From Chloroflexia bacterium SDU3-3 (GTDB taxonomy: Bacteria > Chloroflexota > Chloroflexia > Chloroflexales > Roseiflexaceae), in NCBI GenBank assembly GCA_009268125.1, contig WBOU01000002.1:1-64000 (forward strand): DNA of 64,000 nucleotides, written 5' to 3'. Shown piece by piece: positions 1 through 10,392 of the stretch; position 1 is the first letter of the stretch, and the number at the start of each line of letters is the position of its first letter. The position numbers were made by a program, and so were the translations under genes. The notes under the pieces are model-generated. The model made no database searches. It was given only the letters and a program-made list of their open reading frames with translations, and was not told the origin of the DNA.

Positions 1-210
1 CAGGGCCACCCGGGAGCGCCTTTCGGCTTTCCTCCTCAGAGCGTATGCGGGATTAGCACCGCTTTCGCGGTGTTGTCCCCCACTCCCGGACAGGTCCCCA
101 CGTGTTCCTCAGCCGTTCGCCACTCAGCACCCGAAGGTGCCGCGTGCGACTTGCATGCATTAGGCACGCCGCCAGCGTTCGTCCTGAGCCAGGATCAAAC
201 TCTTCATCGC
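1..210 (-). rRNA. rrs: 16S ribosomal RNA, 5' portion (runs off the left edge)
   Basis: The reverse complement contains the universal bacterial 27F-type segment AGAGTTTGATCCTGGCTCAG followed by GACGAACGCTGGCGGCGTGC, ending near coordinate 203. By analogy with E. coli numbering the mature 5' end lies at about 210. Only about 210 nt of the gene are present; the rest, with any 23S/5S genes, lies left of the window. The variable V1/V2 part (roughly 1-150) is available for taxonomic placement. Confidence 0.97.
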
Positions 211-1185: not shown

Positions 1186-1396
1186 AAGTACCGAGATCTT
1201 TGCCGGATCGGGGGTGCGCATGCTTAGCAACACGCTCTGGTGTGCCGACGAGCACCACAGTCGGCGGAAGCCGACCACCACCCGCAGCCACCATCAGCGG
1301 CAATGCATCATCAAAGCGCGGCTGGGACATCTTCCAGACCGCCCGCAAGCAACACCGCATGCCCGTGATTGGCCCGCCCATGGAACTGCGAGTGCT

Positions 1397-1639
1397 TTGC
1401 TGGAGGTGAGGATCACCATGCCGCACAAAAGGCGCAAAAAACAGCCGCTCACTGATGCACAAAAGGCGGACATTCAAACCCTTGCGCGGCGGCGCGTGCG
1501 GATTGAGCATATCATCAACGCGATCAATCGTTGTGCTATCGTGAACAATGATCTTCGCCTTCGTGCCGGCCATATCCGTGACACTATGATGGAAATCTGC
1601 TGTGAACTCCATAATATTCAGATTTCTTTTGTTCTCTAA
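1397..1639 (+). pseudogene. Transposase fragment (DDE_Tnp_4 / IS5-like C-terminus)
   Basis: The last ~75 residues, from MPHKRRKKQPLTDAQKAD through RRRVRIEHIINAINR to the end near CCELHNIQ, match the C-terminal pattern of DDE_Tnp_4 (IS5-type) transposases: PHKKP..LT..QK, then RRVRVEH carrying the last catalytic Glu, then a hydrophobic ALHN end. The N-terminal two thirds with the first two catalytic Asp residues are missing: the upstream 200 bp does not read as transposase in any frame. The element is therefore dead. It abuts the AT-rich orphan region to its right. Confidence 0.75.
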
Positions 1640-1931
1640 AAAATAGCCACACAAGCTTCTATAAAGCCTAATTTAATCAATTAGAAATTAAATTACCTGA
1701 ATATAATCCATAAATTGATTTCTTAAGCATTTACAGTTATCACAATATCATAACCAACAAAATAATTTTTTAATAATTATCCGTTGTGATCTTTAAAATT
1801 GAGCAAACTACTTATATCTTAATCCAATCAAAATACCCTTAAATATATCCGCCCAAAAACTCAACCCAATTACAATATAAGTAAATTCACTCTATCCTTC
1901 AAATAATAAATATCTTATAATAAACAGTTAT
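1640..1931. other. AT-rich intergenic region, nothing recognised
   Basis: About 290 nt of markedly AT-rich sequence between the transposase fragment and the 3' end of the orphan immunity-like gene. No coding frame, repeat or RNA gene was recognised. Its composition matches the orphan gene, not the GC-rich backbone, so it probably arrived with that gene. Confidence 0.5.
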
Positions 1932-2405
1932 TCAAAGCCCATAATGAAGTATATACCCATCTCTCTCACCAGCCAACCGCGAAAGATTGATAATATTTTG
2001 AATATACTGAATTAAATGAGAACGATTAATAAAAATATCCTCATAGTAACCTTCTCCTTCATTTCCCATATCGTCAATATCGCTTACCCAGTCACCAGTT
2101 AGATGAACATCTTCAGGAGCAAATTCAAATAAATTCACCCAAACCTCACAAATTGACACAAATTTACTAATTTCAGAAGGTTCAATAATTGTAGGCCCAA
2201 AAAGATTTAAACCCAAAAAAGATTTACTACTACTTACGGGATTAATTGTATTTAACCACTTTAAAGTATCATTTATATAGCTTATGATTTCATTGGGTAC
2301 AAAAATAACATTATTAGATTTTTTCGACAAAATATCATTAAAATCAAAAAAGGAAGAAAACTCATCAAAATCTATAATTGTGAATAAATGGTCATTTCCA
2401 TTCAT
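1932..2405 (-). CDS. Orphan acidic protein, candidate immunity protein for the RHS toxin
   Basis: A 157-aa acidic, soluble protein with no signal peptide or membrane span. It is strongly AT-rich, unlike the backbone. The start is placed at ATG 2405 because AGGGG lies 7 nt upstream and the likely transcription start is near 2424, which rules out the in-frame GTG at 2426. Visible features: acidic Asp/Glu clusters, a segment WVSDIDDMGNEGEGYYED, a hydrophobic helix near the end (LIQYIQNIINLSRLA), and a tail GYILHYGL similar to the final strand of many bacterial polymorphic-toxin immunity proteins. No specific family is recognised. The gene lies on the same strand downstream of the RHS toxin gene, with only an IS1 remnant between, which is the usual position for an immunity gene. 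That function is inference from position, size, charge and composition. A SMI1/KNR4-like or unrelated island protein is the alternative. Confidence 0.55.
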   Translation of the reverse strand: MNGNDHLFTIIDFDEFSSFFDFNDILSKKSNNVIFVPNEIISYINDTLKWLNTINPVSSSKSFLGLNLFGPTIIEPSEISKFVSICEVWVNLFEFAPEDVHLTGDWVSDIDDMGNEGEGYYEDIFINRSHLIQYIQNIINLSRLAGERDGYILHYGL

Positions 2406-2430
2406 ATTAATACCCCTACTATGCACTAAA

Positions 2431-2459
2431 ACTATATCTTACAGAAATGTGATTATAAA
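2431..2459 (-). promoter_or_regulatory. Promoter of the orphan immunity-like gene
   Basis: Minus-strand -35 TTTATA (2454-2459), 17-nt spacer, -10 TATAGT (2431-2436). Transcription would begin near 2424 and leave a ~19-nt leader before ATG 2405. An own promoter would allow expression independent of the RHS gene despite the IS remnant between them. Confidence 0.5.
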
Positions 2460-2609
2460 CTATTCCGAAATAGATTCACCCCTATCATATTTTCGGCGAC
2501 CCACAGATCACAGTCTTAATTCGACTGATGATAGTTAACATACTAAAAAAGCCATACACCCATAGATAACCTCCTGCTGAACAAATCCCTCATTTTCGAG
2601 AGGGATAAG

Positions 2610-3072
2610 ATGTTATTTATCGGCTCCAAAGCCAATGAGGTACGGATATGGCTTGCGTTGGAACGACAAACGCACTACACGGCGATCATTCGGCAGAAGC
2701 AGGGCGATATTTGTGGGCATCCCTACCTGCTTATTATGGCAAATGGGGTGTTTGCTTCTTCAATTTCTGGTCGGCCTACCCAGCATTTCTTCCGTCCAAA
2801 CACAACCATGCAGTGGGCAGGGGAAATGGGAGAAACCGCCTATATCGAACACTTGAACCACATGCCCCGACAGCATTGTGCCAATCTCGTGCACAAAACC
2901 CTGCCTTCAGCAAAGCCCGCAAATTCCAAAAACGCCGCATCCGCTTGTTTTTCGACCATTATAACAAGCAGATTGAACAACATGCTTACAGTTTAGTTTG
3001 GACCACTACCGTGTTTGGTCGACCCAGTGTTCGTTCCGCAGGAATGATGGCGGTCAAAGTTCTTGCTTGCTA
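2610..3072 (+). pseudogene. IS1-family transposase (InsB-like), truncated and frameshifted
   Basis: Two overlapping frames together reconstruct an InsB-type IS1 transposase. The first (from 2610) reads FIGSKANEVRIWLALERQT, equivalent to the W-x-FVGSK...WLALDRQT segment of IS1 InsB. After a shift, the second (through about 2700-3000) reads LPAYYGKWGVCFFNFWSAY, FLPSKHNHAVGRGNG, then SFSK-like and FFDHYNKQIEQ, matching the LPGVYRQC..YTDFWEAY..LPSKRHRAVGK...HHYN order of IS1. The N-terminal HTH half (InsA and early InsB) is absent and at least one frameshift lies near 2690. No terminal inverted repeats were found. The remnant sits exactly between the RHS gene and its putative immunity gene. Confidence 0.8.
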
Positions 3073-3162
3073 GTTGCAATCCAACCATTCTGCTAAAACT
3101 GTGTCGATCCATAGCTGTAGATATTTAGACAATCATAAGTTTCTTTACCAACGTTGCATATG

Positions 3163-6100
3163 CTATCGTAACTCGTTTATACCATATGTAACTATTTTTC
3201 CATCTCTGATAATCAAAAATTCCCCATTCCCCTTATTATAACGTATAGTTTGCCAGTCAAGTGGAGTACGTCGTGCCCCTCTAGTATTAAATCTATCAGC
3301 ACGCCTTAAATACTCTAGAAAATTATCACCAAATCCATGCCGCCCAGCATGATCCACAATACTATGAGCAACACTATCATATGAACTACGATCCCAATGT
3401 TGCATTCTCTCCTGTATTTCTCTAATCTGTTGTTCATTGTAATCTGGCTTGAACAGCCTCTGCTCCCAAGGGTCTATGCTTGGCTCCGGCGTTGGCGCTG
3501 GCGTTGGTGCTGGCGCTGGATCATCCCCTCCACCACTTCCGCCGCCGCCACTGTCCATCATGGCACAACTAATTGTAGAAACCAGCCGCCACGTTCCTTG
3601 AGTGGCCATAACACCGCCATGGGCAGCAATCCCGGCACCAACTACGGCCATAGGACCACCGACAAAGCATGTTACACCACCAGCACAAACAACAACACCC
3701 CCAGCAGCAGCCGTACCACCACCAAACCATTCAGCACTACCCCATATCATGGAGCCAACATCGCCAACCGCACGACACACCGTCATCGCTACAGATTCAC
3801 CATCCGCAACTTGTGCTGCTGGATTAAGTCCCCATGTAGCATTAAGCGATAGCTGTTTGAAGAAACCTGCCAGACACTGGTTACCATCCCCAAGATCTGA
3901 ACCGCCTGGATTATTTGGCACAGGGCGTGGTGTTGGCGTCGGTGCTGGTGTGGGCGGTACAGGTGTATCTGCAGGCGATGGGCATGGCGTCCCATCAGGA
4001 AGAACACACGTACCTGCAGGATCTGTGTATAATAATGGGTTGCCTAAAGCATAGGCATAGACATTATGACTATATGGCTGCTCATCAAAAGATTCACGAG
4101 GACTCCATCGAGCAACATCAAACCCACCGCGTGCGGCATTGTACCAACGTGCGCGCAGGTAGACCTGGTCGCCCTGCTGGAGCTCGCCGGTGAAGCCGAA
4201 GGTCGGCGCGGTGCCGCTTTCCACCTGGCCCCACGGGTCGTAGCTCACCAGCGAGTGGAGATCGCCCGCCGCGTCCAGGGTGCCGCGCACGCTGCCCAGC
4301 GCGTCGGCGGCGTACCATGTGTAGCTGGTGCCGCCCAGCGCCGCGATGCGACCCGCCCCATAGACGTAGTCGGTCGCGCCCACCTGGAGCACCTGGCTGA
4401 GCGGCGCGGCCAGATCCTGGGCGTAGCGCGTGGTCGCGCCGCCGCTGGCCTGCGCCACCAGCACGCCGTCGGCATTGTAGTCGAAGGTGGTCGTGCCCTG
4501 CGCGGACAGGCGGCTTAGCGCGTCGTAGGTGTAACTGGTGGTGCCGTCGCTTGTCAGGTTGCCCGCCGCATCGTAGGTGGCACCGACCAACTGGTTGGCG
4601 GCGTTGTAGGTCTTGCCGCCGTCGGTGCGGTTGCCCGCCAGATCGTAGCTGTAGGTGTAGTCGGCACCCGTGCTGGCGTCCGCGCCGGTCAGGCGGCCCA
4701 GGCCATCGTAGGCGTAGGCGATGGTGCGGGCGGCGGAGGGCTGCTGGCGTAGCACCTTCAGCTGGTAGGTCAGATAGTTGATATAGACGAAATCTTTCAA
4801 TCCGTCGGCGTTCATGTCCGCCAGCTGCAGGTCGAAGATGTTGGGCACATCGGAGACCTTCACGTCGGCGCTGAACGTGCCATCGCCCTTACCACGATAG
4901 ACCTGCAGCCAGCTCGTGGTATTATTCGCGATCACTGTCGAGATGTCGGGCACCTGGTCGTTTGTCACATCAGCAATCACCACACGGCGGTTGTTGATCG
5001 CCGTGGGGATATGGGCCGCCTCGGTAAAGGTGCCATTGCCAGCGCCGAGAAAGACCTGGGTGTAGGTATCGCCAAAGAGCGCCACGGCGATATCGGGGTG
5101 GGTATCATTATTCAGGTCGCCGACCGCGATGCTGATCGGGGAGATGCCGGTGGCGTAGGACTGCGCGCTGGCGAAGGTACCATTGCCCGCCCCAAGCCAC
5201 ACGTTCATCGTACGCGCCCCGTAGGCCACAAAGGCAAGGTCGAGGTGGCCATCGTGGTTGAGGTCGGCCAGCGCCACATCACGCGGTTCCGCTCCCGTGG
5301 TATAGGAGGTCACGGTGAATGCGCCGGTCCCTGCGCCCAACAGCACGCTCACCGTATTCGCACCCTTATTTGCCGCCACCAAATCGAGGTGGCCATCCCC
5401 ATTCAGATCGCCCGCCGCAATGCTGTAGGTGTCGCTGCCCGTGGCGATCAGCTGCTTGGCCTGAAGCGTCCCATTGCCATTGCCCAGCAAAATACTCACG
5501 CCGTTGCTGCCCGCCGATGCGGTCGCAACATCAACCTTACCATCCTCGTTGAAATCACCCACGACCAGCGCGCGCGGGTTGTAGTTTGTCGCCTGTGAGC
5601 TGGGTGCTCCCAGCGTGCCCTCGCCCTGGTTGAGGAAGATCTGCACGGTGTTATTGCCCGCATTGGCCACCACTACATCGCGTGCGCCATCACCATTCAT
5701 ATCCTGCGTCACCAGCGACTGCGGGTTCAGGTTCGTGGTGTAGGTCAGCACATTGCTGGTTGTGATCGGCAGCGTGCTGCCAAGCTGCTCGCTGGCGGCG
5801 GTGCGATTGCCGGTGCGGTCGAGGGTGTAGCCAAACTGCGCGAGCGTGCCCTTCGCTGTGGATGCGGTGGTGCTCTGCTTCAGGCGACCGACGCTGTCGT
5901 AGTCGTAGCTGGTGGTCACGCCGTTGGCGCGGCTGAAGGTTTTCGCCCGCCCGGTGGCGTCGTAGCCGTAGGTGGCCAGCGTGGCGGTGCCGTTCAGCAC
6001 CTGGTAGAGCTGCCCGCTGCTGGTGTAAGTGTAGGTCACCTTGGTGCCATCGGGATAGGTCAGCTCGCGGCGCTGGCCTAGCGCGGTGTAGCCGTAGCCA

Positions 6101-9100
6101 ACCTTGCCCGTGCTGGGCGCGGTGATCTCGGTGATGCGGCCCAGCGCGTCGGGCACAAAGGAGGTGGTGCCGGTACCATCGGTCATGCTGGTGCGGGTGC
6201 CGCGCGCGTCATAGGCCATGCTGATCGGGCTGAGCTTGGCACTGCTGCCTGCGGCGATGCCCGTCTGGCGGTCGCGCTCGTCGTAGGCGTAGGTCAGGCT
6301 GTAGTCGCCGCCGCGCGGGTCAACCTTGCCCACCAGACGCCCGCCACGGTCGTAGGTGTAGCGGGTCTCGTAGCCCAGGCCATCGCGCTGGCTTACCAGC
6401 TCGCTCGCGGCGTTGTAGGCCATGGTGCGCGTCACGATGCCGCGCGCATCGGTCACTTTGGTGTGGTTGCCCGCGCGGTCGTAGGCGTAGCGCGTCACCA
6501 CATTGCAGGGCGCGTGCGCGCAGGTGCTGCTCGCCACGTTCTCGGTCACAGCCACTAGGCGATCGTTGAGATCGTAGGTGTAGGCCTTCACCACGCCTGC
6601 GGCGTCGATCTCCTGGAGAGCGCGGCCAGCGCGGTCATAGACGGTGCGGGAAATCAGGTCGGTATCGGCTGGCTCATTCGCGGCGACCGCGCCATCCTGG
6701 TAGTTGGCGATGGTCGCGACCACGCGACCCAGCCCATCCACCTGAGTGATCGAGATCACGCCGTCGGCAGCCTTGCTCCAGCGCTGCGCGCCAGTGCCAT
6801 CGGCACCCTGGCGCGTCACATGCCCCAGGCTGTCGGTGATCACGCTGGTCTGGCCCAGGCCATCGTAGGCCATGCGCGTGACCGCGCCGAGCGCATCCGT
6901 AACCACGGTGGTCTGGCCCAGGGCGTTGTAGCCCGTGCGCGAGGTGATGTTGGTGGTGCTATCCACTGCGCCGCCTGGGACATAGTTCTGAGTGCTGGCC
7001 ACCACGCGGCCAAGGATGTCGTAGTCGCTGTGGGAAGCCACACCCAGCGGGTCGGCGGTGGCGTCCACACGGCCAAACGCATCGTAGCTGGTGGTCGTCT
7101 TCACATTGCGGTCGGGCCTGCTGGCGCTGAAGGGCGCGCAGCTGGTGGCCGAGGGGTTGCCCGCCGCGTCGCGGCAGTTCTGGATGGTGGCCACCACACG
7201 GCCCAGATCATCGTACTCCTGCCGCGTCCAGCGTCCGAGCGCGTCGCGCTGGGCGACCATGCGGCCCGTCACCGCGTCGTAGGCGGTGGCCGAGGTGCGG
7301 TTGGTGTCGGTCGCGGTGCTCTGGGTCGGGTCGTAGTTCTGGGTGGTGCCCGCCGAGCGGCCCAGCGTATCGTACTGGTAGAGCGTCACGCGGTCGGTGA
7401 TCGGCTCGGTGGTGGTGAACACGCCATCCACATAGTTCTCGATGGTGCGGTCCACCTGGCCATCGGCGGTGTAGCGCGTCACCTGCACCATGTCGGTGTC
7501 GGTGCCATTGGTCCAGGTGCGGTTGGCGGCATCCACCGTCAGCGGGTTGCCGTTCTCATAGTTCAGCGTGGTGGTGATCGGGCGGTTCAGCGCATCGTAC
7601 TCGGTGTGCGTCCAGCGGCCCAGCGCATCGCGCGACCAAGTCGTATTGCCCACATTGTCGTAGACGCTCAGCATCTGCACGTTGGTATCGGCGCTGGCGG
7701 GCAGGCCAGGGCGGTAGTTCAGCGTGGTGGTTACGGGGCGCGAGAGGCTGTCGTACTCGGTCTTCGTCACGCGGGTGGTTGCGGCGCTGAAGGTGAGGGT
7801 CTGCGGGTTGAACGTGCCGGTGAGGATGCCCGTCTGGGTCACCAAGCTGGTGCGGCCAAAGCCGTCGTAGCCCATCAGTGTGGCCACGTTCTGATCGGGG
7901 TGGGCAGGCGCGAAGGGCTGGAACACCGGCTGGCCCTGGCTGTCGAGCGTCAGCGGCACCAAGTTCTGCACCGACCAGTCGACCTTGCCCTGCGCATTGT
8001 AGTGCGAGGCGCTCACATGCCCCAGCACGTCGCGAGTCCACACCTGCCGCCCCAGCAGATCGTAGCCGTAGGTGGTAACCAAATCCTCGCTGGGCTTGGC
8101 GGAGTCGAACACGCCATCGACATAGTTCTGAATGGACTGCGCGACCGTGTTGTCGGCGTTGTAGACCGTCTTATCTTTGCGCTGCCAGACTGTGCCTTTG
8201 TAGCTGATCAGCATGGTGCGGCGGCCCAGCGCGTCGTACTCGTAGGCGGTGGTCTGGCTGCCCGGCTGGCCGTATCCCACCGTCGCCTCGGTGATCTGGC
8301 CGAGGTCGTTATAGGTGTAGCGAGTCGTCACCTTGGTCGACGAGGTCTGCTCCTCCAGCCAGTTCTTGCCGGGGTAGCGCACGTTGTAGGTGTAGACCGT
8401 GGTGAAGCCCAGCGGGTTGGCCGTGGTGATATTCGTGGTCTGGCGGATGAGGTTATGGGCAGTATCGTAGGCGAAGGACGAGACCCGATTCAGCGTATCG
8501 GTCATCGTGATCGGCTGATTCTGCGCATTGTAGATCGTGCGCGCCGTCTGGCCCAGCGCATTGGTGCTGGCCTCGGGCAGACCCATGGCGTTGTAGGTGG
8601 TCTGGCTCGTGTTGCCGTTGGCGTCGGTGGTCGCACCCGGCGCGAAGTGCGCGTCGAAGTCGGAGCCTTTCACCAGCACGCCATTCAAGTACTGGGCCGT
8701 CACCACATTATCTTCGCCATAGACATACCGCTCCACCTGCTGCTCGCCGGTAGCTGCGGTGGTCGTGATCGTCGTGGCATCATCCGCATAGGCGGCGGTG
8801 ATGTCTTGGCCATCCTGTAGTACCTGGTGGATGACACGACCGCTAGGATCGTAGCTATCATACTCCGCCGACATCTCCACCTGACCAAGCGCATTCGTCA
8901 CCGTGGTGAGCATGTGGTTTTGATAGGAGTAGGACGTCGCACGCCCCATCACATTGGTGAACGTGGCGAGATCGCCGTTGAGATAGGAATAGCTAATGGT
9001 CCGTACGCCATCCGACACCGTGCGGATACGGCCCACAGGTGATGGCTCCACGATCGTATTCCCCGGCACTTTGCCAAAATACGTGATGGTGATCGCACGG

Positions 9101-10392
9101 GTCGGATGTATTGCATCGCGGATGGCTGTCAGGGCCCCATCCCCCGAGGTGCCATACTCCAGATTCAGCCGCTGACCCTGGGCGTCAATATAGACCTGCA
9201 ATCGGCCATCCGCGCCAAACACATACCGCTCTTGGGTGCGATCAGTCTGGGTGTAGACCCCGGTGACGCTATCGTGGGCAAGCGTGCTATAGATACCCGC
9301 CAGACCTTGATAGGTGCCATCGCCGTTGGGTTGATAGCGATAGGTATTGCCCTTGGGCGAGATGATTTTGACAACGTTCTCGGTATTATTGGGGTCATCT
9401 TCCGGGATGAGTTTGATATTGTAGTCGTGCTGCCAGCCATTCCCCAGCAGCTCAGCTAACGTGCCGCTATTGCTGGTGTTGTAGCTGCGCGACCAGCTCA
9501 GCTTCGGGCCGGGCGACGAGACGGTGAGGTCGGTCGCGCCATACCAGAGGAAGCCGGTGCGGGTGTTGAACGGATCGCCTATGTTTGGCTGGGTTGCCTG
9601 GCAGGGGCATACTTCTTTGGTCTTATTCTGATCCTCAGGCATGTCGAGGATGCCGTATATTTGAGCCTCCACAATCATGGGGCCCCAATCATGGTCATCA
9701 TTGGGTGAAATATTGATCCGAATATATCGTGCTGTACGGTTATCAACCGTATCAACGGTATGTGTGCCGCTCGGTAATTTCTCAGCAACAATCACAACCG
9801 GATTCGCAGCATCTGATACCTCTTGGACCTCATACGGCAAAGGGTTTATATCGTAATTTGCCCAGAGAATATCAATCTTTGTAATTTTATACTCTCGACC
9901 CAGATCGACCTGCCAATAAACCGAGCCAGACTCATCATCGGCAGTTTTTGTTTTCGCAAATGATTGAGGAGGGAGCAGGCTAAAGGGAGCTTGCCAGTAG
10001 CTCTTAAAATCACCATCATTTGCCTGGCTACTAGGGAAACAAAATTGCTGTGAGCCATCAGGACTCCATTCCGAACAATCAGTGGCACGATTAGACGAGG
10101 TTGGTTTCCCACGCGCCAGCTCCTCCTCAGGGTTTTGCGCATCATTAGGCGTTTGAGAAAGAGCTATTGGCTGTGCTGCTTTCTGCAGCGCGGCGGGCCG
10201 GAACTGAGCAGGGGGTGCTGCGGATGCGGGGGCGGCATTCGCCATGGGCGACGCCTGGGGTGCAGAAGAGGCCGCCTGCGCGACCGCTGGGGCGTGCTGG
10301 GGCACACCAAACGAGAACACCATCGCCAGCAGCACAACACGGTGGACAAGCGCACGCAGGTGGCGCGCAGCCGCAGCAAAACGCAAAGACAT
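3163..10392 (-). CDS. Giant secreted RHS/YD-repeat protein with discoidin, FG-GAP block and C-terminal toxin-like tip
   Basis: 2409 aa. Order of parts: Sec signal peptide (1-40, hydrophobic core LLAMVFSFGV); F5/8-type discoidin domain (about 88-250, ARGKPTSSN...VYWQVDLGREYKITKIDI); DUF6531-type RHS entry domain (about 268-345, GDPFNTRTG, WSRSYNTS); many YD repeats (YDxxGR) to about 1545; an FG-GAP/VCBS block of repeated DxNxDGxxD motifs (about 1550-1882); more YD repeats; RHS core (DALGSVRGTLD near 2039, RARWYNAARGGF near 2075, NPLLYTDPAG near 2115). Beyond the core lie two Pro/Thr linkers, a Gly/Ala-rich hydrophobic segment (about 2200-2260) like a pre-toxin membrane module, and a ~100-aa tip with HSIVDHAGRHGF, a Tyr/Arg-rich centre and EFLIIRDGKIVTYGI. 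That pattern recalls BECR/colicin D-like RNase toxins (inference). From about 4125 to the gene end the DNA is AT-richer, as for an exchanged tip. GGGGAA lies upstream of ATG 10392. Likely a surface or secreted polymorphic toxin. Confidence 0.9.
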   Translation of the reverse strand: MSLRFAAAARHLRALVHRVVLLAMVFSFGVPQHAPAVAQAASSAPQASPMANAAPASAAPPAQFRPAALQKAAQPIALSQTPNDAQNPEEELARGKPTSSNRATDCSEWSPDGSQQFCFPSSQANDGDFKSYWQAPFSLLPPQSFAKTKTADDESGSVYWQVDLGREYKITKIDILWANYDINPLPYEVQEVSDAANPVVIVAEKLPSGTHTVDTVDNRTARYIRINISPNDDHDWGPMIVEAQIYGILDMPEDQNKTKEVCPCQATQPNIGDPFNTRTGFLWYGATDLTVSSPGPKLSWSRSYNTSNSGTLAELLGNGWQHDYNIKLIPEDDPNNTENVVKIISPKGNTYRYQPNGDGTYQGLAGIYSTLAHDSVTGVYTQTDRTQERYVFGADGRLQVYIDAQGQRLNLEYGTSGDGALTAIRDAIHPTRAITITYFGKVPGNTIVEPSPVGRIRTVSDGVRTISYSYLNGDLATFTNVMGRATSYSYQNHMLTTVTNALGQVEMSAEYDSYDPSGRVIHQVLQDGQDITAAYADDATTITTTAATGEQQVERYVYGEDNVVTAQYLNGVLVKGSDFDAHFAPGATTDANGNTSQTTYNAMGLPEASTNALGQTARTIYNAQNQPITMTDTLNRVSSFAYDTAHNLIRQTTNITTANPLGFTTVYTYNVRYPGKNWLEEQTSSTKVTTRYTYNDLGQITEATVGYGQPGSQTTAYEYDALGRRTMLISYKGTVWQRKDKTVYNADNTVAQSIQNYVDGVFDSAKPSEDLVTTYGYDLLGRQVWTRDVLGHVSASHYNAQGKVDWSVQNLVPLTLDSQGQPVFQPFAPAHPDQNVATLMGYDGFGRTSLVTQTGILTGTFNPQTLTFSAATTRVTKTEYDSLSRPVTTTLNYRPGLPASADTNVQMLSVYDNVGNTTWSRDALGRWTHTEYDALNRPITTTLNYENGNPLTVDAANRTWTNGTDTDMVQVTRYTADGQVDRTIENYVDGVFTTTEPITDRVTLYQYDTLGRSAGTTQNYDPTQSTATDTNRTSATAYDAVTGRMVAQRDALGRWTRQEYDDLGRVVATIQNCRDAAGNPSATSCAPFSASRPDRNVKTTTSYDAFGRVDATADPLGVASHSDYDILGRVVASTQNYVPGGAVDSTTNITSRTGYNALGQTTVVTDALGAVTRMAYDGLGQTSVITDSLGHVTRQGADGTGAQRWSKAADGVISITQVDGLGRVVATIANYQDGAVAANEPADTDLISRTVYDRAGRALQEIDAAGVVKAYTYDLNDRLVAVTENVASSTCAHAPCNVVTRYAYDRAGNHTKVTDARGIVTRTMAYNAASELVSQRDGLGYETRYTYDRGGRLVGKVDPRGGDYSLTYAYDERDRQTGIAAGSSAKLSPISMAYDARGTRTSMTDGTGTTSFVPDALGRITEITAPSTGKVGYGYTALGQRRELTYPDGTKVTYTYTSSGQLYQVLNGTATLATYGYDATGRAKTFSRANGVTTSYDYDSVGRLKQSTTASTAKGTLAQFGYTLDRTGNRTAASEQLGSTLPITTSNVLTYTTNLNPQSLVTQDMNGDGARDVVVANAGNNTVQIFLNQGEGTLGAPSSQATNYNPRALVVGDFNEDGKVDVATASAGSNGVSILLGNGNGTLQAKQLIATGSDTYSIAAGDLNGDGHLDLVAANKGANTVSVLLGAGTGAFTVTSYTTGAEPRDVALADLNHDGHLDLAFVAYGARTMNVWLGAGNGTFASAQSYATGISPISIAVGDLNNDTHPDIAVALFGDTYTQVFLGAGNGTFTEAAHIPTAINNRRVVIADVTNDQVPDISTVIANNTTSWLQVYRGKGDGTFSADVKVSDVPNIFDLQLADMNADGLKDFVYINYLTYQLKVLRQQPSAARTIAYAYDGLGRLTGADASTGADYTYSYDLAGNRTDGGKTYNAANQLVGATYDAAGNLTSDGTTSYTYDALSRLSAQGTTTFDYNADGVLVAQASGGATTRYAQDLAAPLSQVLQVGATDYVYGAGRIAALGGTSYTWYAADALGSVRGTLDAAGDLHSLVSYDPWGQVESGTAPTFGFTGELQQGDQVYLRARWYNAARGGFDVARWSPRESFDEQPYSHNVYAYALGNPLLYTDPAGTCVLPDGTPCPSPADTPVPPTPAPTPTPRPVPNNPGGSDLGDGNQCLAGFFKQLSLNATWGLNPAAQVADGESVAMTVCRAVGDVGSMIWGSAEWFGGGTAAAGGVVVCAGGVTCFVGGPMAVVGAGIAAHGGVMATQGTWRLVSTISCAMMDSGGGGSGGGDDPAPAPTPAPTPEPSIDPWEQRLFKPDYNEQQIREIQERMQHWDRSSYDSVAHSIVDHAGRHGFGDNFLEYLRRADRFNTRGARRTPLDWQTIRYNKGNGEFLIIRDGKIVTYGINELR

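Follow-up and report, generated by a model that had tools for sequence, protein, structure and literature searches.

A candidate immunity-type protein family with a predicted YfbM-like fold beside the variable end of an RHS toxin locus in a Chloroflexia bacterium

A large RHS gene near the start of the window (the whole stretch of DNA analysed, 64,000 nucleotides of contig WBOU01000002.1 from Chloroflexia bacterium SDU3-3) is followed on the same strand by a small gene for an acidic protein, here termed the orphan, and the remains of an insertion sequence lie between the two. The arrangement raises the question whether the C-terminal tip of the RHS protein and the orphan are a toxin and its dedicated immunity protein. 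The original prediction held that they are, and presented the pair as new in a phylum where such systems are scarcely described. The latter point fails, since the 2012 survey of polymorphic toxins (PMC3482391) lists Chloroflexi 40 times and such toxins are already well documented there. Whether the two genes belong together depends on the following features, listed in the direction in which the RHS gene is read.

3163-10392, minus strand: RHS protein, an intact and uninterrupted ORF of 2409 aa
3163-3501, minus strand: C-terminal tip of the RHS protein, 112 aa, following a proline-rich linker; candidate toxin domain
2576-3010 (left border approximate), plus strand: decayed IS1-family remnant, matched by NF033558 in two frames
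1932-2405, minus strand: the orphan, an intact ORF for an acidic 157-aa protein; candidate immunity protein
1214-1639, plus strand: IS5-family transposase remnant, situated beyond the orphan (PF13359, E 5.8e-6; NF033581)

Results

The RHS protein comprises, in order, a signal-like N terminus, an F5/8-type C domain (PF00754), RHS repeats interrupted by FG-GAP repeats (PF13517), the Rhs-associated core, a hydrophobic, proline-rich linker and the C-terminal tip. Pfam recognises 18 stretches of RHS repeats (PF05593) as well as DUF6531, and NCBIfam identifies YD repeats (TIGR01643) and the Rhs-associated core (TIGR03696) at residues 2051-2127. RHS polymorphic toxins are recognised by RHS/YD repeats and an Rhs-associated core followed by a variable tip, and all of these are found in 3163-10392 (-); the large RHS protein with a tip of about 100 residues that had been predicted is therefore confirmed. 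The integrin-like FG-GAP repeats interrupt the RHS repeats in the stretch that separates the YD repeats from the core (window ~4750-5810, residues ~1528-1880). The window opens inside a 16S rRNA gene, whose 5' part occupies positions 1-210 (-), and the RHS locus thus adjoins a ribosomal RNA gene. Taken alone, the RHS locus is unremarkable; RHS toxins that combine a tip with an immunity gene are already an established type.

The RHS protein, and with it the tip, ends in EFLIIRDGKIVTYGINELR. The last ~90 codons of the tip have a GC content of 37.8%, against 62.6% for the RHS core, which is the usual sign of a swapped-in tip. Profile searches with the tip gave no match in Pfam (E up to 10), NCBIfam or PADLOC and chance-level matches only in PHROG, and tblastn gave none in 72,556 plasmids or 50,697 phages. 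In 400 Chloroflexota genomes and 82 genomes of the source's order there were chance matches only; the weak candidates from Chloroflexota (L009-L015, L094-L101), once translated in all frames, were rejected as chance, some falling in ABC transporter frames. Viral contigs, searched by pattern scan, carry relatives of neither the tip nor the orphan, and the same holds for phages.

A single-sequence structure model of the tip is poor (pLDDT 51.6), and the fold search made with it, in which the best match was no better than E 2, is meaningless at a model pLDDT of 52. In the prediction helices precede strands, which is no argument against the BECR nuclease that had been proposed. A colicin D-type residue pattern had been read into the tip. 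The published Tox-Colicin D pattern consists of [KH]K, Hxx[ED], [ST] and [TS]xxK (PMC3482391); the 112 residues of the tip contain no KK or HK, no Hxx[ED] and no [TS]xxK, and this part of the original prediction is not confirmed. A small nuclease-type toxin is the most likely candidate for what the tip encodes.

The source genome holds seven other RHS tips, and all seven are followed by a small same-strand ORF at a distance of 12-80 bp (tip GC 0.36-0.43, partner GC 0.28-0.45). In one of these pairs the tip is an AHH nuclease and its partner is weakly Imm11-like; the pair belongs to an array of displaced RHS tips (L062:4439-11201), in which a small immunity-like gene comes 12-30 bp after each tip. 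The RHS tip L060:3-4457 is followed by an Arf-like small GTPase that has a P-loop (L060:4483-5040 (+); PF00025, E 2.3e-8), and the protein after the RHS tip L065:9698-10675, encoded at L065:9091-9669 (-), has no profile match and looks like a GTPase without its P-loop. Both small proteins are encoded 25-28 bp downstream of their tips; a GTPase is an unusual partner for an RHS tip. The tip and orphan studied here, with GC contents of 0.378 and 0.297, fall inside the range of the seven pairs, whereas their spacing of 757 bp is far outside it.

Part of that spacing is the IS1-family remnant. It retains the C-terminal half of the transposase over two frames, with weak matches to NF033558 positions 106-125 (E 0.1) and 132-176 (E 0.006). 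A single GGTAGTGGTCCAAAC at 2994-3010, read on the minus strand, closes the remnant and, on our own reading, fits an IS1 terminal repeat; the element lacks its opposite end. Short repeats on either side of the remnant, considered as a candidate target duplication, look like chance, and no IS1 transposase was found elsewhere in the source genome. The IS1 remnant expected between the RHS gene and the orphan is thus present, as a frameshifted 3' part of the transposase plus one terminal-repeat-like end. That it split the two genes is accurate only in part, for they would still stand ~322 bp apart without it. On the other side of the orphan, the IS5-family remnant has 82% identical DNA elsewhere in the source genome; the 291 bp between it and the orphan (window 1641-1931) have a GC content of 24% and no ORFs.

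The orphan matches its original description as an acidic, AT-rich product of the RHS strand, with a pI of 4.2, 24 D/E against 8 K/R and 29.7% GC, the last in line with other immunity-like genes of the source genome. No ORF of 157 aa arose in 1000 dinucleotide shuffles of this AT-rich stretch (longest 126), so the orphan ORF is not due to chance. From the RHS stop to the IS5 remnant (1641-3162) it is the sole minus-strand ORF of at least 40 aa; as the only intact one before the next IS remnant, it is the best candidate for a partner. A promoter of its own could not be upheld: there is one 9/12 site as a candidate, and the region contains 10 such sites against 7.9 +/- 3.0 in shuffles, which is not above chance.

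Relatives of the orphan were found in Ktedonobacteria (6/400 Chloroflexota genomes), Planctomycetota (Phycisphaerae), Armatimonadota, Acidobacteriota and Brevibacillus, on a Niallia megaplasmid and on a Treponema plasmid. They occur in 9 of the 39 genomes of the Brevibacillus order and in 29 of the 399 Bacilli genomes. When 13 members are aligned, invariant or near-invariant positions span the whole length, with motifs HxF near the start, D..L.W..T, G-L-N..G.T.I, W..L, P, L and a terminal H.G. These 13 gave no match in Pfam, its immunity models included; the orphan gave a chance match only in NCBIfam and none in BFVD at E <= 0.001. A family profile run against PDB sequences with HMMER returned short chance matches, which were discarded. 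Judged by its alignment, the family is genuine, conserved and intact, and it lies outside Pfam.

A model of the orphan built on 11 sequences reaches a mean pLDDT of 86 and predicts an acidic alpha+beta protein with the YfbM fold. Its best matches among solved structures are E. coli YfbM (1ryl), with Z 9.9 over 122 residues at 3.7 Å, and Neisseria DMP12 (3w1o), with Z 9.6 over 105 residues at 3.4 Å; the next match has only Z 4.5, and VIA-align structure matches below Z 5 were disregarded. Comparison of the family with the YfbM sequence gave no link (hhalign probability 0.3), the DUF1877 profile matched neither the orphan nor the family members, and DUF1877 was absent from the 101 Chloroflexota genomes searched. 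No paper naming a link of such a family to YfbM or DMP12 was found in the open-access literature. The family and its fold link to YfbM and DMP12 seem to be new.

The neighbours of ~45 relatives were read by eye and ~35 neighbour proteins were tested against profiles. The majority of relatives are solitary or sit among unrelated genes, and toxin/immunity-type settings are a minority. Among the latter, a slightly degraded family member in Bacilli (L131; hhalign probability 98.7) lies in an RHS-type cassette array, on a contig of displaced toxin tips and immunity genes that includes Imm42, a weaker Imm42-like gene, Ntox35, Tox-REase-9, DUF4304 and CdiI_ImmP. Other relatives have the immunity-type neighbours WapI (L083), DUF7674 (L084) and SUKH with DUF4279 (L024). 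Toxin/immunity cassettes and polyimmunity loci were described by Zhang et al. 2012 (PMC3482391), and occurrence in them, by which immunity proteins are recognised, is found for this minority of the ~45 loci; the match of the array and of these neighbours to the published settings makes immunity the likeliest role for the family. The claim that the orphan is immunity-like thus probably holds, given its acidic alpha+beta fold, the cassette array, the WapI, SUKH and DUF7674 neighbours and its GC, and the family is probably immunity-type, a candidate role drawn from gene context.

Two further settings were observed. In Dictyobacter arantiisoli, a PT-HINT polymorphic-toxin-like gene (L019:4911-5825 (-)) is divergent from an orphan relative ~166 bp away. 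In one Bacilli branch (L117, L118, L119, L122, L128), relatives recur in a chromosomal setting with a NUDIX hydrolase, a GNAT acetyltransferase and a phospholipase-like gene, which suggests either a non-cassette role or a fixed immunity gene.

Adjacency to the tip was checked in other genomes. Among 12 genomes or records with orphan relatives, none has a tip relative, and the tip has no known relatives whose downstream genes could show the same order. Nearly all orphan relatives are without RHS neighbours, the L131 member excepted, a finding that the original prediction had itself named as speaking against the pair.

Discussion

The proposed toxin/immunity pair emerges weakened. The shared strand and the fitting GC contents support it; the 757-bp gap, the solitary relatives and the lack of tip relatives oppose it. 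A specific pairing of tip and orphan is possible but unproven.

We tentatively favour a reading in which all parts belong together, which as a whole we place a little short of an even chance. The window would then contain the variable end of an RHS polymorphic-toxin locus, where an AT-rich tip was swapped into the RHS protein. The tip would be a small nuclease-type toxin delivered to neighbouring cells, and the orphan, as a member of a widespread acidic alpha+beta family whose gene contexts support action as immunity proteins, would be its partner. It would protect the cell by binding the active face of the toxin. DMP12 is described as a DNA mimic that binds the histone-like protein HU (PMC5722371) and as having a DNA-like negative surface; the acidic surface of the orphan, which shares the predicted fold, may mimic nucleic acid in the same manner. 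Insertion of IS1 and local decay would have enlarged the spacing between the two genes.

It is also quite possible, if not our preferred view, that the orphan is immunity-type and is not the partner of this tip. It would be a stand-alone or polyimmunity-type gene acquired separately between the IS remnants, the true immunity gene having been lost by an IS1-linked deletion or lying elsewhere, and the RHS toxin would be silent or already neutralised. Several observations suit this account: (i) most orphan relatives are solitary or in immunity arrays without a toxin of their own, and polyimmunity loci are an established concept (PMC3482391); (ii) the orphan lies between the IS5 and IS1 remnants, which makes a separate arrival possible; (iii) the IS1 remnant is truncated where it faces the orphan, which is what a neighbouring deletion would produce; (iv) the spacing is unlike that of the seven other RHS pairs. 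However, the RHS frame and its tip are intact, from which we argue that protection exists, and neither 3011-3162 nor 2406-2575 contains readable remains of a second immunity gene.

That the family has nothing to do with immunity, being YfbM-like and housekeeping or regulatory (such as a DNA mimic that targets nucleoid proteins) and near toxins by chance or hitch-hiking, is distinctly unlikely: the YfbM/DMP12 fold with the reported HU binding of DMP12 (PMC5722371), the conserved non-toxin synteny of one Bacilli branch and the small number of toxin/immunity-related neighbourhoods among the ~45 would suit it, but it does not sit well with the family member inside the L131 cassette array, the repeated immunity-type neighbours, the patchy spread across Chloroflexota and Bacilli genomes or the place of the orphan in an AT-rich island beside an RHS tip.

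If the favoured reading of an immunity-family orphan paired with a nuclease-type tip is right, the polymorphic-toxin repertoire would gain an undescribed immunity family present in several phyla, and the fold link to YfbM and DMP12, both poorly understood, would suggest a testable mechanism, acidic mimicry. A bolder version, in which the orphan is the cognate partner of a new RHS tip and also founds a new YfbM/DMP12-fold immunity superfamily using acidic mimicry of nucleic acid to neutralise nuclease tips, we consider unlikely; were it true, the unassigned YfbM/DUF1877 and DMP12 proteins might themselves derive from toxin immunity.

Comparison with known systems places each component differently. 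The tip recalls the BECR-fold RNases (barnase, EndoU, colicin E5/D, RelE; Ntox35) as a general impression only, through the histidines of its N-terminal helices and a C-terminal strand pair with DGKI; it differs from them in having no profile match, a model pLDDT of only 52 and none of the colicin D residue pattern. The orphan shares its predicted fold with E. coli YfbM (DUF1877) and with Neisseria DMP12, and its acidity parallels the negative surface of the latter, whereas sequence identity is 10% to either protein, and for YfbM the sequence and profile comparisons likewise part the two. The locus as a whole departs from RHS polymorphic toxin systems in that the candidate partner sits beyond a decayed IS1 at a distance of 757 bp, not 12-80 bp, and in that both tip and orphan stand outside the described toxin and immunity families. 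It resembles the RHS/WapA/YD polymorphic toxins (Zhang et al. 2012, PMC3482391) in its RHS core and variable low-GC tip, in the small same-strand gene downstream and in the further toxin/immunity pairs carried by the same genome.
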